From positions 1 to 59,973 of the forward strand of contig NZ_JADPCH010000014.1 in assembly GCF_015670745.1 (NCBI RefSeq): a stretch of DNA of 59,973 nt. The letters are read 5' to 3'. The notes beneath the pieces were generated by a model. That model did no database searches. It had not been told where the DNA came from and saw nothing but the letters and a program-made list of their open reading frames with translations. A program made the position numbers and the translations under genes. This document shows positions 5,299-47,288 of the stretch, piece by piece (the stretch's first letter is position 1; every line of letters begins with the position of its first letter). The stretch is from Collinsella aerofaciens (GTDB lineage Bacteria; Actinomycetota; Coriobacteriia; Coriobacteriales; Coriobacteriaceae).

Positions 5299-6086
5299 TG
5301 GAAAAACCGCACATCGATACAACCGCTGTCGAAGTGCCGGCCGACCTTGCGTCGCCGGCGCTTTATCGTATCGATGATGCCCACCATCCCCGCGTCGATC
5401 GTGCCGAGATGCTGCGCTACCTGGGCTACAGCGGTCAGCAAATTGAGCCCGAGCTGTCGCAGCGTATTGAGCTTGTCGTTGAACGTTTGGAACTGGACAT
5501 TGAGCCCCGTGGCGTGCGACGCGTGTTTGCCGTCGATGCCACGGGCGTAGACGAGCAGGGAGAGCCCTGCATCCGTCTGGTCGGCACCAACGTTGAGCTG
5601 CGCGGTCGCGATATCTATCGACATCTCAAAGACGCCCGATTTGCCGCGCTCATGGCATGCACCCTCGGCATGGACGCCGAGCGTCGCCTGCGCACCACGG
5701 GAGCCCAGCAGCCCCTAGAGGGAGCTGTGCTCGATGCCGCGTGCTCTGCCTATGTGGAAGCTGCCGTCGAGCAGATGGACCAGCAGGTCAAGGCTGCGGC
5801 CGCCGCACACGGACTCGCCGGCAACTGGCGCTTCAGTCCCGGATACGGCGACTGCCCGCTTACGGCACAACGCTCGATCGTGAATGCGCTCAACGCCACG
5901 CGGCTCATCGGGCTTACCGTCACGCCTACCAGCCTACTCATGCCCACAAAGAGCGTGACCGCGGTGATCGGTCTGTTTGACGGCGAGGTCCACGACGCCC
6001 AGAGCCGCCCCACCTGCAATATCTGCCGCATGCGCGAGCACTGCCGCTTCCGCGCCGCCCACACCACCTGCTATTCCAGCCATTAG
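5298..6086 (+). CDS. Stand-alone methionine synthase reactivation (activation-domain) protein, 262 aa
   Basis: It resembles the C-terminal activation domain of MetH (Met_synt_B12), which binds SAM and supports reductive remethylation of oxidised cob(II)alamin. Family features seen: RFAALMACTLGMDAERRLR, NWRFSPGYGDCPL and the loop LMPTKSVTAVIGL. The Cys-rich end CNICRMREHCRFR plus a later Cys is typical of stand-alone versions in anaerobes and may carry redox or metal chemistry. It sits between metF and metH with a 1-nt overlap upstream and a 9-nt gap downstream. The MetH below lacks exactly this domain, which supports the assignment. Confidence 0.85.
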   Translation: MEKPHIDTTAVEVPADLASPALYRIDDAHHPRVDRAEMLRYLGYSGQQIEPELSQRIELVVERLELDIEPRGVRRVFAVDATGVDEQGEPCIRLVGTNVELRGRDIYRHLKDARFAALMACTLGMDAERRLRTTGAQQPLEGAVLDAACSAYVEAAVEQMDQQVKAAAAAHGLAGNWRFSPGYGDCPLTAQRSIVNALNATRLIGLTVTPTSLLMPTKSVTAVIGLFDGEVHDAQSRPTCNICRMREHCRFRAAHTTCYSSH

Positions 6087-6095
6087 GAGCCCCCG

Positions 6096-8654
6096 ATGTT
6101 TACTCCGCTTATCACTCATGATCTGGACGGTGCCGCGTTGGCGGCGCCCGTTGATGCCGCACGCCGCAATGGCGCCACGTACAAGACGCGCACGATCGAC
6201 GACCTTCGCATTAAGGACGATCGCCTGCGCGCCGCCATCGAGGGCACGGGACACCTGCTGTTCGACGGCGGCATGGGCACCATGCTGCAGGCGGCCGGCA
6301 TGAAGGCCGGCGCCCTGCCCGAGCTGCTCAACTTTGAGGAGCCCCAAGTCATTACCGATATTCAGCGTCAGTACGTCGACGCCGGCTGCGACGTAATCAC
6401 CGCCAACACCTTTGGCGCCAACGCCCACAAGCTCGACGGTGCCGCCACCGTGGCAGACGTCTTTGCCGCGGCCGTCACCTGCGCCCGCGCGGCCGGCGCC
6501 CGCTACGTCGCCGGTGACATCGGCCCCATCGGCGCCCTGCTGCGCCCCCTGGGCACCCTCAGCTTTGACGAGGCCTACGACCTCTTTGCCGAGGAGGTGC
6601 GCGCCGGCGTCGCTGCGGGCGTCGACCTCTTTATTATCGAGACTATGACCGACCTGGCCGAGATCAAGGCGGCGGTCCTCGCCTGCCGCGAGAACTCCGA
6701 CCTGCCCGTCTTTGCCACCATGACCTTTGAGGAAGACGGTCGCACCTTCCTGGGCACGAGTCCCGAGGTGGCCGCCATCACGCTCGATGCCATCGGCGCC
6801 GACGTTTTGGGCATCAACTGCAGCCAGGGACCGGCCGAGCTCCGGGGGCTCGCCGCACGTATGCTCACCGTTACCGATAAGCCCATTATGGTGCAGGCCA
6901 ACGCGGGACTCCCCCATGTGGACGACGACGGCAACACCGTCTTTGATATCCAAGCCCCCGAATACGCCGAGGCCGTCGCCGGCATGATCGCCGACGGCGT
7001 GAGCGTCGTGGGCGGCTGCTGCGGCACCACGCCGGCGCACATGGCAGCGCTACGCACGCTTATCGATAACCACACGCCCAGCCCACGCCGCCGCAAGCCC
7101 AGCATGTCGGTCACGAGCGCCCAAACGGTCGTGGACCTTCCCTGCGACGGCCACAAGATCGCCGTCATCGGCGAGCGCATCAACCCCACCGGCAAAAAGC
7201 GCCTGCAGCAGGCCCTGCGCGACGGCGACCTGGACTACGTTGTGAGCCAGGGCATCAGCCAGCAGGAACAGGGCGCCGACATTCTGGACGTCAACGTGGG
7301 CCTGCCCGAGATCGACGAGGTCAAGATCATCCAACAGGCGGCCGAACAGCTCCAGGGCTCCACGCTGCTGCCGCTGCAGATCGACTCCACCGACCCCGCA
7401 GCCGTCGAGGCCGCCGTGCGCCGCTACGCCGGCAAGCCCATCATCAACTCGGTCAATGGCAAGCAGCAGATCATGGATGAGATCTTTCCGCTGGTCGCCC
7501 ACTACGGCACCAACGTTGTCGGACTTACGCTCGACGAAGGCGGCATCCCCGATACCGCCGAGGCCCGCTTCGCCATCGCCGAACGCATCGTGGCCGAGGC
7601 TGCCCGCTACGGCATCGGACCGGACCGCATCCTCATCGACTGTCTGGTCATGACCGCCTCGACCAATCAACGCCAGGCCGAGCAGATCCTGCGCGCCATG
7701 TCCCTGTGCAAGGAGCGTCTGGGCGTCAAATGCGCGCTCGGCGTGTCGAACATCAGCTTTGGCCTGCCTGCCCGCCCGCTGCTGGGCTCGGTCTTTTTGG
7801 CCGCCGCTTTTGGCGCAGGTCTTGATGCCCCCATCATGAACCCGGGCTCCAAGCGCTTTATGGATACCGTCTACAGCTATCGCGTCCTGAGCGTTGAGGA
7901 CGAGGGCTCGACCGGATACATCGAGCGCTACGGCGGCTGGACCGATCCGTATAAGATCGCCGCCAACCCGGCAGCTGCTCAGGCAGTATCGACCGACGCT
8001 GTGCCCGCTGCTGGCACCGCCGGCACCGACGGCAACGACGGCCCGATTCGTCGCATGGTCGTCTCGGGCCGCAAAGGCGAGATCGCTGCCGAGACCGAGC
8101 GTCTGCTGGCAGATCACGACGCCATGGACCTCATCAACAATCACTTTATCCCCGCCCTCGATGAGGTTGGCGTCCTCTTTGACCAGGGCAAGTTCTTCTT
8201 GCCGCAGCTTATGGCCTCGGCCGAGGCAGCACGTGTTGGTTTTGACACCATCAAGCGCCTGATGCCCGCCGGCGAGATTGCCGACAAGGGCAAGATCTGC
8301 GTGGCCACCGTCAAGGGCGACATCCACGATATTGGCAAGAACATCGTCAAAATGCTGCTCGACAACTACGGCTACACCGTCTTTGACCTAGGCCGCGACG
8401 TCGACCCGCAAGAGGTGCTCAAGACCGTGCAGGAGCGTGACATTAAGCTCGTCGGCCTCTCGGCGCTTATGACTACCACGGTCGTCGCCATGGAGGAGAC
8501 CATCAAGTTGCTTCATGCCGAGGTGCCGGGCGTCAAGATCATCGTAGGCGGCGCCGTGCTCACCCCCGAATACGCCAAGCAGATCGGCGCTGACTACTAC
8601 GCCAAGGACGCCGCCGAGAGCGCTCGTATCGCCGAAGAGGTCTTTGGGCAGTAA
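6096..8654 (+). CDS. metH: Cobalamin-dependent methionine synthase, short form without activation domain, 852 aa
   Basis: It transfers a methyl group from methyl-THF via cobalamin to homocysteine. Domains in order: homocysteine-binding barrel (about 50-340; LFDGGMGTMLQ, with zinc-ligand Cys in GINCSQGP and GGCCGTTP), pterin-binding barrel (about 360-610; VIGERINPTGKK, ILDVNVG, DSTDPAAVEAA), cobalamin cap (about 650-735) and B12-binding fold (about 740-852; GDIHDIGKN with the base-off His). A full MetH has about 1200 residues. The missing activation domain is encoded by the preceding gene. ATG 6096 follows AGGAG. A linker near residues 630-650 is rich in Ala and Gly. Confidence 0.95.
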   Translation: MFTPLITHDLDGAALAAPVDAARRNGATYKTRTIDDLRIKDDRLRAAIEGTGHLLFDGGMGTMLQAAGMKAGALPELLNFEEPQVITDIQRQYVDAGCDVITANTFGANAHKLDGAATVADVFAAAVTCARAAGARYVAGDIGPIGALLRPLGTLSFDEAYDLFAEEVRAGVAAGVDLFIIETMTDLAEIKAAVLACRENSDLPVFATMTFEEDGRTFLGTSPEVAAITLDAIGADVLGINCSQGPAELRGLAARMLTVTDKPIMVQANAGLPHVDDDGNTVFDIQAPEYAEAVAGMIADGVSVVGGCCGTTPAHMAALRTLIDNHTPSPRRRKPSMSVTSAQTVVDLPCDGHKIAVIGERINPTGKKRLQQALRDGDLDYVVSQGISQQEQGADILDVNVGLPEIDEVKIIQQAAEQLQGSTLLPLQIDSTDPAAVEAAVRRYAGKPIINSVNGKQQIMDEIFPLVAHYGTNVVGLTLDEGGIPDTAEARFAIAERIVAEAARYGIGPDRILIDCLVMTASTNQRQAEQILRAMSLCKERLGVKCALGVSNISFGLPARPLLGSVFLAAAFGAGLDAPIMNPGSKRFMDTVYSYRVLSVEDEGSTGYIERYGGWTDPYKIAANPAAAQAVSTDAVPAAGTAGTDGNDGPIRRMVVSGRKGEIAAETERLLADHDAMDLINNHFIPALDEVGVLFDQGKFFLPQLMASAEAARVGFDTIKRLMPAGEIADKGKICVATVKGDIHDIGKNIVKMLLDNYGYTVFDLGRDVDPQEVLKTVQERDIKLVGLSALMTTTVVAMEETIKLLHAEVPGVKIIVGGAVLTPEYAKQIGADYYAKDAAESARIAEEVFGQ

Positions 8655-29274: not shown

Positions 29275-29480
29275 AGGCGCTCCCTTCCGCATAACAGGTA
29301 AACCGCTCTAGTATACAAGGCAACGCCACTTGGAGCAGGTGCTTTACCCAAATGCAGCGAAAACGTAACGAGGACGGCGGACTGGCAGGCGGCGGGCTGA
29401 CGGTTCTGCAGCGAAACCGCACCGTCCATAGCAAAAACCGTCTCGTCCACAACGAGAACCGTCGCGCCCGCAGCGAAAAG

Positions 29481-29537
29481 CATCACAACATTCGGCATTG
29501 TTCGTCCAAATCGCGATTTTCATCGAATGTTGTGATG
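29481..29537. repeat. Palindromic element H2, copy 1 (CATCACAACATTCG family)
   Basis: CATCACAACATTCG pairs with CGAATGTTGTGATG across 57 nt, and the centre contains AATCGCGATTT. A second copy with the same length and ends is at 41876-41932. In both places it neighbours a CCACCACAAAGG palindrome and follows a minus-strand stop codon. Confidence 0.75.
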
Positions 29538-29552
29538 GTTTGGAAGCCCCGA

Positions 29553-41714: not shown

Positions 41715-41807
41715 GGGGGCCTTTCTGGGTTGTGCGGCGGTGCTGAATGAGGTCGGAAATGGTGTACATGGTATACCAAGGCGCGCACGGGGCGCTTTGG
41801 CGCAAAA

Positions 41808-41840
41808 CCACCACAAAGGTGCCTGGTCCCTTTGTGGTGG
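41808..41840. repeat. Palindromic element H1, copy 3
   Basis: CCACCACAAAGGTGCCTGG then TCCCTTTGTGGTGG, 33 nt. It lies between the MFS stop (after H2) and the HAD start. Confidence 0.8.
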
Positions 41841-41875
41841 CCGAACCCGAAGGGTGGCCTGGCCGGAACGCAAAC

Positions 41876-41932
41876 CATCACAACATTCGACGTTTTTCGG
41901 CAAAATCGCGATTTTTATCGAATGTTGTGATG
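41876..41932. repeat. Palindromic element H2, copy 2
   Basis: CATCACAACATTCG and CGAATGTTGTGATG, 57 nt apart at their ends, with AATCGCGATTT in the centre as in copy 1. It begins 4 nt after the MFS stop codon on the minus strand and could act as its terminator stem. Confidence 0.75.
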
Positions 41933-41936
41933 GTTT

Positions 41937-43223: not shown

Positions 43224-43397
43224 GGAGACTCCTTGTTTCATACGAATGCGGACGGCGGGCATTCGGCACCGTCTGTCAAATCAATCTATCCGCATGAAAC
43301 ATTAAGGACGCATCAAGCCCCTTCTCTCCGTTTTTCGCCCGTCATGAACTTCTTGTCAGATTGTAAGGCATGTCCCACACATCTATCAAAGGAAAAA

Positions 43398-43430
43398 CCG
43401 CCACAAAGGTGCCTGGCCCCTTTGTGGTGG
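43398..43430. repeat. Palindromic element H1, copy 4
   Basis: CCGCCACAAAGGTGCCTGG then CCCCTTTGTGGTGG, 33 nt. It is 3' of the moaC-mobB gene, past its terminator. Confidence 0.8.
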
Positions 43431-45983: not shown

Positions 45984-46048
45984 AAACCGTCCCAAAAATC
46001 GATGATTTTCTTCAATATCAAGAAAAGCATCGATTATTGAGACGGTTT
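45984..46048. repeat. Palindromic element H3, copy 1 (AAACCGTCCCAAAAATCGATG family)
   Basis: This 65-nt near-perfect hairpin has arms that begin AAACCGTCCCAAAAATCGAT and end with the complementary TCGATTATTGAGACGGTTT, with loop CAATAT. A second copy lies at 47224-47288, so the pair brackets the DUF559-like gene. Confidence 0.8.
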
Positions 46049-46086
46049 GCCTGCTCACAATACCCCGCAGAAGGGTCAGAACGCCC

Positions 46087-47124
46087 CTAGAGGCCACCAT
46101 TCCAGTTGCGAATCACGAATTCCCGCAGGTCATTCTGCCGTTTCTGGAACACCTCGCTTCGGTCGCACTTGAGACCCATAGCGAGCGCGATGGCATTCAT
46201 CGCCCGGTGCAATTGCAGCTGATGGGCAAACTGAGTCCCGGTGAGAACGATCATCCTAAAGCCCAGCGCGCTCAGCACGGTCATACGCTCCGCATCCGAC
46301 GCGCTGCGCTGTTTATCAAGATGGTCCGAGCCGTTGTATTCAATCCCCGTACCGCTCGCAGGCGCATATACGTCGATCTCGAAATACCCGGCCTTAGCGA
46401 GATATTTGAACTCGTTGGGAACATCGATCCGATGGTTGAGCTCGACCCTGGTGTACCCTAGCCCGCCCTGGGAACGCTTCGCGACGACCATGATTGCGGT
46501 GGCCGTCTCCATAGGCGAACGAGCAGCGTCCTTTACACGCTTGAGCAACGAGGCCGCGCGCTTCACGCCTCGACGCGAAGGATTCTGCTCGCAAAAAGCA
46601 CGCAGGTCGGCGACGGCATATCGTTGCGAGGCCTCAACATAATCATCGCTCGACAGATGGTTAAGGTGATACCGAGCACACACTTCAAATCCGTACTCAA
46701 GCTGCTCGAGCTCGCTCATCCACGAGCCCGCCTGGACAAGGCACATGGCCTCATCAACCACCAGAAGACCCTCTGCAACCTCGATAAGATGATCCGAAGG
46801 TATGGGCGCCCCAAACACATGGCGTCGGAGACCCGCCGGCCGAGAGCGTTCAAAATCGAAGCTAACCAGCGTATCAATACGGCCGAGTTCCTCTTGAGGA
46901 ATACCAAGTGAGACCAGATAGTCGGCGACAATCTCGACCGCTGCAGATATCCTCAATCCCTTGGCATCGAGCCCCAATTTGGGGAGGCTCGCAGTCGGCT
47001 CCACCTCGCCAGCAAATGAGCCTTCGTCGTATAGGCTGCTTGCCCGTGAGAGCGGCTCTAACGGGCGCGCCGCGTTGTGGTACAGCCAGGCAGTCTTATG
47101 GGACAGGACGATCGGCAAGTCCAT
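46087..47124 (-). CDS. Endonuclease-like (DUF559/VSR-type) hypothetical protein, 345 aa
   Basis: The C-terminal 110 residues look like a small PD-(D/E)XK nuclease fold of the DUF559 type: YFEIDVYAPASGTGIEYNGS (acidic residues), then HLDKQRSASDAERMTVLSAL and FRMIVLTGTQF. The first part resembles AbiEi-like proteins common in coriobacteria but I cannot name it. ATG 47124 is chosen for GGAG upstream and the start MDLPIVLSHKTAWLY; the frame is open to 47235 inside the repeat. It is flanked by the two H3 palindromes, as a cassette. Function not known. Confidence 0.7.
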   Translation of the reverse strand: MDLPIVLSHKTAWLYHNAARPLEPLSRASSLYDEGSFAGEVEPTASLPKLGLDAKGLRISAAVEIVADYLVSLGIPQEELGRIDTLVSFDFERSRPAGLRRHVFGAPIPSDHLIEVAEGLLVVDEAMCLVQAGSWMSELEQLEYGFEVCARYHLNHLSSDDYVEASQRYAVADLRAFCEQNPSRRGVKRAASLLKRVKDAARSPMETATAIMVVAKRSQGGLGYTRVELNHRIDVPNEFKYLAKAGYFEIDVYAPASGTGIEYNGSDHLDKQRSASDAERMTVLSALGFRMIVLTGTQFAHQLQLHRAMNAIALAMGLKCDRSEVFQKRQNDLREFVIRNWNGGL

Positions 47125-47223
47125 GAGCTCTCCAATGGGTCGGATAACCAACCTTATTCCCCTGCTCACGGATTCGCACACTTCCACGTACAAGAAAGCA
47201 TTCCACCCGTACGAGCGACAGAA

Positions 47224-47288
47224 AAACCGTCCCAAAAATCGATGCTTTTCTTCAATATCGAGAAAAACATCGATAATTGGGACGGTTT
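47224..47288. repeat. Palindromic element H3, copy 2
   Basis: This 65-nt hairpin, AAACCGTCCCAAAAATCGAT...ATAATTGGGACGGTTT, has loop CAATAT as in copy 1. A few arm positions differ from copy 1 with pairing kept (GATAATTGGG versus GATTATTGAG). Confidence 0.8.

Follow-up and report, generated by a model that had tools for sequence, protein, structure and literature searches.

Collinsella aerofaciens carries a gene for a predicted PD-(D/E)XK-like nuclease enclosed by two 65-nt palindromes, with further solo copies of the palindrome elsewhere in the genome. We interpret this arrangement, with moderate confidence, as a REP-like repeat system in which the palindromes are recognised by the product of the gene that they bracket. 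Bracketing extends across a clade of related proteins, with palindromes that are mostly specific to a subfamily. Solo palindromes, gene-less alleles with one palindrome or none, and inverted alleles are all present. The gene is under selection, arm pairing is kept through sequence change, and the arms co-vary with segments of the protein. From this pattern we infer binding, cleavage and any role of the protein in the spread of the palindromes. The DNA analysed, hereafter the window, is a 59,973-nt stretch that makes up the entire contig C5 of genome G000 (2.11 Mb, 44 contigs).

The bracketed gene and its palindromes

The features of the window are the following.

29477..29541, no strand: solo family-A palindrome between gatC-like and sortase-like genes (names from ORF reading), present in 20/20 aligned loci
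41872..41936, no strand: solo family-A palindrome with CATCAC arms, immediately 3' of an MFS transporter gene
45984..46048, no strand: 65-nt family-A (H3) palindrome 3' of the bracketed gene, arms AAACCGTCCCAAAAATCGATG
46087..47124, minus strand: bracketed gene encoding 345 aa with a PD-(D/E)XK-like C-terminus (DUF559/MTES_1575-like), ATG at 47124 preceded by GGAGAG
46321..46518, minus strand: predicted nuclease core, S203-P-M-E206, D251, E262-Y263-x-G265 and H268, invariant in 15 relatives
46525..46749, minus strand: codons 126-200, with 17 of the 23 amino acid changes private to G000, which alone also has changed inner arms
46795..46950, minus strand: codons 59-110, with all 9 fixed amino acid differences between three CGTCCC-arm and 14 CATCAC-arm genomes
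47224..47288, no strand: 65-nt family-A (H3) palindrome 5' of the bracketed gene, 100 bp ahead of its ATG

The two bracketing palindromes are direct repeats, 92% identical, with arms that are 89-90% complementary. Their exact coordinates and length had been given by an earlier sequence-only reading, which also placed one gene between them, and a single minus-strand gene is indeed found there. Their folds as single-stranded DNA have energies of -21.6 and -23.0 kcal/mol, where shuffled sequences average -4.8 and -5.55 (z = -9.8 and -9.7; 0/200 shuffles as good). The arm motif AAACCGTCCCAA, with up to one mismatch, occurs 4 times in the window, every time within the two bracketing palindromes, a number that 0/100 shuffles reach. 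The same reading held that the arms differ with pairing kept, which fails between these two copies: three of the five differences fall where neither fold has a pair, and one arm mismatch in each copy is absent from its partner. Pairing preserved by changes in both arms appears once many palindrome copies are compared. The solo copies at 29477-29541 and 41872-41936 had been overlooked.

The bracketed gene ends with a stop codon at 46087-46089, and the GGAGAG before its ATG is a plausible ribosome site; the TTG start at 47235 proposed by the ORF caller falls inside the 5' palindrome and is unlikely. Split in G004 and interrupted by one stop in G006, the gene is elsewhere under purifying selection, with a median dN/dS of 0.126 compared to 0.053 for moaA (105 pairs from 15 orthologues, excluding G004, G006 and G011).

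The DUF559-like C-terminus proposed from the sequence holds as a likeness to DUF559/MTES_1575, but the window protein is under both Pfam cut-offs (12.9 of 20.6 bits for DUF559 and 17.8 of 38.2 bits for MTES_1575). The DUF559 gathering score that it misses is reached by L126 (25.2 bits) and by a bracketed relative, L088 (22.3 bits). Residues invariant in 15 clade members include S203-P-M-E206, D251, E262-Y263, G265, H268, D277 and R280; we read them as a putative PD-(D/E)XK core, in which the S203-P-M-E206, D251, E262-Y263-x-G265 and H268 motifs would be catalytic. The N-terminal part of the window protein has no Pfam model above cut-off. Scanned against Pfam, 11 members gave mostly weak DUF559/MTES_1575 hits along with chance hits, two of them having no hit at all, and none showed a transposase or a Y1 transposase domain. 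NCBIfam returned nothing convincing, and among the PADLOC defence models the window protein has no match at E 0.1 and its relatives weak hits only. Because a PDB search found no solved relative and AlphaFold2 gave no usable model (mean pLDDT 34), the nuclease fold is assigned from the weak Pfam hits and the motifs.

A search for a phage or virus origin produced no phage match and no relative on viral contigs, and the two matching plasmid records from Collinsella are both distant paralogues. A circular 1785-bp record, 'plasmid 11', was rejected as an excised element: what it contains is a fragment of an IS21 transposase gene next to a distant paralogue.

Bracketing across the protein clade

In a tree of 32 proteins, the 15 bracketed rows and the unbracketed L227 form one clade (support 99/98) of PD-(D/E)XK-like (DUF559/MTES_1575-like) Coriobacteriales proteins. 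Two palindromic repeats of 56-77 nt thus enclose 15 of its 16 rows, a count that includes near copies, with two A rows and three C rows among them. The bracketing label requires 3 changes on the tree compared to 11.0 in shuffles, of which 0/500 were as low. The bracketed subfamilies are A, B, C, D, F, G and the more distant H, and their palindromes mostly differ from one subfamily to the next. H3 is therefore not unrelated to the gene family, a possibility that the sequence-only reading had set against its own proposal: bracketing follows the gene clade. L227 (G102) has no repeat pair within 900 nt despite its position inside the clade, and L223 has a weak bracket, with a pair score of 14, whose palindromes were recognised only by reading the ends (AAAGCATCGCAT / ATGCGATGCTTT).

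Two cases were kept apart from these counts. L104, the outlying H relative, is bracketed by a shorter, 50-nt palindrome and lies off the main clade. In the distant E group, a palindrome (CATATGAACATG..) lying ~350 bp away from the gene was rejected as a bracket; it resembles the operator of a neighbouring gene, with half copies further off. A distant relative, in L114, is flanked on both sides by tandem ACTCAGTACTGACAG-like units (about 6007-6080 and 7761-7910).

Comparing the 400 nt upstream with the 400 nt downstream of ORFs from the same loci, we find a score of >=42 for 18 of 49 family ORFs and for 3 of 327 other ORFs (control median 10, 99% quantile 40, maximum 58). The family ORFs are not an independent sample, as orthologues are among them. 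The window gene and L071 score low since their stop-to-stop ORFs overlap a palindrome. The highest control, L084, sits within a family-A bracket, and three other top controls that were inspected are flanked by a different repeat, CCACCACAAAGG.

A search of 395 genomes of the order at 1e-45 gave matches in 34, of which nine lie outside the genus. Palindromic pairs of 62-68 nt bracket seven of the eight loci examined from these nine (G204 is the ninth). L245 and L246 are the same locus, 93% identical including the flanks; because the flanks match too, transfer between bacterial families is rejected. For a second bacterial family (f2) the evidence is one genome, G152, in an assembly with 6% contamination, and G135 duplicates the G201 locus.

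Alleles and solo palindromes

At the site next to moaA we compared 21 close genomes, defined by a moaA DNA identity >=90%: 18 carry the A gene with two palindromes, one a solo palindrome without the gene, and two neither. By protein search, an orthologue of 84-87% identity is present in 17 of 42 other genomes of the genus (18 genomes counting the window), a patchy distribution within one clade. The moaA-side flank is common to all 18 genes and the opposite flank variable. Both palindromes are present at all 18 loci, although the second copy is split across two contigs in G011, and G023 has an extra insert between gene and palindrome. The brackets are direct wherever both copies are complete and matched (16/18 loci, the exceptions being L085 and L070, for which no pair was scored). 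The gene-less allele in G030 (L129) keeps a single palindrome and both flanks, and is the kind of site that the sequence-only reading had suggested looking for. In G005 and G020, which have neither gene nor palindrome, moaA is joined to the next gene at ACACAAACC, and both alleles can be read as deletions between two copies of this sequence.

The same genome holds a member of subfamily C, whose protein is 37% identical to the window protein and whose palindromes are unrelated in sequence to those of A. At the C site the same 21 genomes comprise nine with gene and pair, four with a solo palindrome (G011, G020, G025 and G031) and eight with none; these counts exclude distant genomes and G032, where a contig end cuts the locus. 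A C pattern matches 23 of 43 genus genomes; the pattern used to compare the alleles missed one copy in several pair alleles as well as the G025 solo, which was read separately. C brackets are inverted repeats in seven of nine alleles and direct in L098 and L099, and the orientation of the segment within its flanks is reversed in three pair alleles (G034, G006 and G007). The alleles without a palindrome share one junction, at which the first 7 nt of the palindrome (AAACATG) are retained; this would be consistent with insertion next to a matching target or with imperfect loss.

C-like palindromes (CAGCATCCAAAG..) also form pairs ~1.1 kb apart in L197-L199 and L201, the L197 pair enclosing a short antitoxin-like ORF. 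A further repeat, TAGTCATCGGGGACGTTCTTTAACGACTAGTC.., lies within ~15 nt of C-like palindromes in L200, L206 and L210.

The earlier suggestion that bracketing could let the gene move as a cassette is partly supported. Loss and inversion are both visible, but among the loci compared we saw no arrival at a new position and no fresh insertion whose ends were clear. With all 18 A genes of the genus on one flank, recent movement to new sites is not seen.

Solo copies exist for six of the seven palindrome families searched genome-wide. A joined query of the genomes concerned gave four solo copies for B, three for D, two for F, at least six for H and none for G. For family A we found five palindromes in G000, four in the window and one on contig C39, so H3 is not abundant, as the sequence-only reading had considered it might be. 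BLAST with H3 finds just the two bracketing copies, since these have CGTCCC arms and the solo copies CATCAC or CGTCAC arms. A half-palindrome A pattern (<=2 mismatches) matches in 22/43 genus genomes, with 1-7 matches per strand in each, and in 0/21 other genomes; its reversed control has zero matches in every genome row.

The four palindromes of the window sit 1-59 nt from the 3' end of a neighbouring gene. Of 18 further solo copies, a crude gene caller places eight <=105 nt from a 3' end (B/D 6/7, A 2/3, C 0/1, F 0/2, H 0/5). The two F copies placed fall inside predicted ORFs, and two of the five H copies and the sole C copy (L291) lie between divergent genes. The A, B and D positions are REP-type locations and not usual operator locations; H and the one C copy differ.

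One other set of genes is flanked by family-A palindromes, a type of case for which a search had been proposed. At the C39-type site (L180-L193) two copies enclose a 4.9-kb ubiX/ubiD/transporter-like operon (names from ORF reading) in G003, G008 and G011, that is in 3 of the 13 genomes with the locus fetched; six others have one palindrome without the operon and four have one palindrome with it. This site was rejected as a clean insertion, its flanks being too variable for clear ends, and so was L186, where the palindrome is present in 2 of 21 aligned genomes (G003 and G030) and the flanks are too variable for an empty allele. Two other repeats occur near solo copies in the window. Directly before the sortase-side palindrome (about 29350-29480, and L159-L178) there is an array of ~21-nt units (..CAACGAAAACCGTCCCGCC..); the number of units varies among strains, and the last one forms the palindrome's left arm. 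The MFS gene lies between copies of a different palindromic repeat, CCACCACAAAGGTGCCTGG.. (41804-41840 and 43394-43430), which is also present in other genomes (L072 and L082).

Probable palindrome recognition, competing explanations and known systems

Each of the outer 19 positions is Watson-Crick paired in 79-100% of 85 distinct A palindromes, and both arms have changed at positions 6, 9 and 13-17; 42 C palindromes have such changes at positions 11, 12 and 17. Part of this pairing is built in, because the collecting pattern fixes 12 (A) or 20 (C) end letters with <=5 substitutions; in A, only positions 13-19 are free of its constraint. The two strands of the A palindrome can be told apart by a C.A/T.G mismatch at position 20 in 61/85 copies.

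Arm sequence and protein sequence change together. CGTCCC arms occur in three of 17 orthologues (a set that leaves out the split gene of G004), on both sides in G000 and G011 and on the 5' side only in G010. These three share 9 fixed residues versus the other 14, all in codons 59-110; P is about 4e-5 for nine of 85 variable positions to span so short a stretch. Average moaA identity is 97.0% across the arm groups and 98.0% within them. The solo copies of G000 have not switched to CGTCCC arms, so only the brackets follow the protein. Synonymous changes cluster in codons 59-110 and 126-200, from which we conclude that these segments are exchanged by recombination; the target-recognition domains of type I restriction enzymes are likewise exchanged in this way. 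Part of the co-variation may be linkage, since a single tract in G010 could carry codons 59-110 along with the 5' palindrome; an additional event is required to account for the 3' palindromes of G000 and G011. With this caveat, the co-variation argues that the protein reads its palindrome, and it lends indirect support to the earlier idea that the protein acts on the palindromes. Palindrome and protein similarity correlate in 13 rows (r 0.50, P 0.0004) and in 12 rows (r 0.38, P 0.008), and not significantly in the 11 rows left after near-pair removal (r 0.21, P 0.15); C and L231 have alike palindromes and unlike proteins. Overall, we consider it probable that the protein recognises its palindrome.

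In a REP-like system of this kind, the nuclease would most likely bind the palindrome, perhaps as a single-stranded hairpin during replication or repair, and nick it. After nicking, palindromes could occasionally be copied or excised and the two brackets could recombine; direct repeats would then give a deletion leaving a solo palindrome and inverted repeats an inversion of the gene. We regard the chances that the protein spreads or excises palindromes as evenly balanced. A more tentative extension is a separate class of palindrome elements spread by a PD-(D/E)XK nuclease, in which codons 59-110 and 126-200 would be swappable segments reading the outer and inner arms, and a change of segment would force a change of bracket. 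Several observations speak against the explanation: the low copy number of the palindromes, the absence of a clear new insertion among the loci compared, the absence of solo copies for G, the unbracketed L227, and the share of only 8 in 18 placed solo copies that lie near a 3' end. Deletion and inversion between repeats, moreover, require no special enzyme. Family-A solo copies are often just behind genes.

That last position bears on two other explanations. A DNA-binding regulator, with the 5' palindrome as its operator and the 3' and solo copies as further binding sites, would fit the palindrome 100 bp ahead of the ATG and the swapped protein segment of G010, which only the 5' palindrome matches. 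The 50-nt palindrome of the H relative L104, the H solo copies (two of five between divergent genes and none <=105 nt from a 3' end) and the placed C solo (L291), likewise between divergent genes, also favour regulation. The 3' copy is, however, as regular as the 5' copy, the palindromes of the window lie 1-59 nt behind gene 3' ends, 6/7 B/D solos are <=105 nt from a predicted 3' end, and the solo copies of G000 kept their arms when the brackets switched; we consider autoregulation unlikely. The A, B and D copies behind genes would suit passive hairpins, acting as terminators or mRNA stabilisers and lost or inverted by ordinary recombination, with no functional link to the gene. Deletion between direct repeats is common, and the 4.9-kb operon is bracketed as well in 3/13 genomes. 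Yet passive repeats leave unexplained both the mostly different palindromes in each subfamily of one clade and the co-variation of arms and protein, and we hold this explanation to be improbable.

Close relatives have a pair, a solo palindrome or neither at fixed sites, and the gene is patchy inside one clade. Both observations bring to mind a homing cassette, in which the nuclease cuts a single-palindrome allele and repair copies the gene and second palindrome from an occupied one. Homing endonucleases usually destroy their own site upon insertion, whereas the occupied alleles here retain two intact palindromes and would also be cut, which makes homing improbable. The likeness to homing endonuclease genes is thus one of presence and absence at fixed sites, and the difference, if the palindrome is the site, is that it is intact on both sides of the gene.

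Other known systems share single aspects of the locus. IS200/IS605 elements have hairpin ends around a single gene, as here, but the bracketed proteins have no Y1 transposase domain and no mobility of the gene was seen. DUF559/MTES_1575 nucleases resemble the protein in its C-terminal SPMET, D and EYxG..H motifs and in weak profile hits; we take these nucleases to be very-short-patch-repair-like (Vsr) and often fused to AbiEi-like domains, and we know of no palindrome bracketing as a feature of those families. As to anti-phage defence, the window protein matches no PADLOC model. A literature search, with most subscription journals outside its coverage, found no paper on a nuclease-palindrome system.

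REP/RAYT is, to our knowledge, the best-described case of a chromosomal enzyme and dispersed palindromes that evolve together. Two papers describe a single RAYT gene copy bracketed by two palindromes with solo palindromes elsewhere, palindromicity kept through change, lineage-specific palindromes and orthologues at one site (PMC2817692, PMC3116915); they also report single-copy RAYTs with dispersed REPINs (PMC3116915) and more than 100 REP copies (PMC2817692). The window gene and its relatives are likewise flanked by two copies of a palindromic repeat, solo palindromes occur, and within family A repeat and gene co-diverge with palindromicity kept; across distant families co-divergence is not significant (11 rows). 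Here, however, the enzyme is a DUF559/MTES_1575-like nuclease, with no Y1/HUH transposase (Pfam Transposase_17) in the 11 members scanned, the palindrome is about 65 nt long, and a genome has a handful of copies (five found in G000), not >100. Nor are the flanks consistently inverted as in REP/RAYT, the A brackets being direct and those of C inverted in 7/9 only. Because the organisation is that of REP/RAYT while enzyme family, copy number and orientation differ, we speak of a REP-like palindrome with a nuclease partner. If this is true, it would represent a new family of sequence-specific nucleases with natural specificity switches, for which G000, G010 and G011 against the 14 other orthologues offer a ready-made comparison of the residues that would read bases. 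In gut bacteria of the genus Collinsella and in some relatives, the nuclease-palindrome units look like a counterpart of REP/RAYT with an unrelated enzyme. An organisation shared by two unrelated enzymes would imply that it arises independently.
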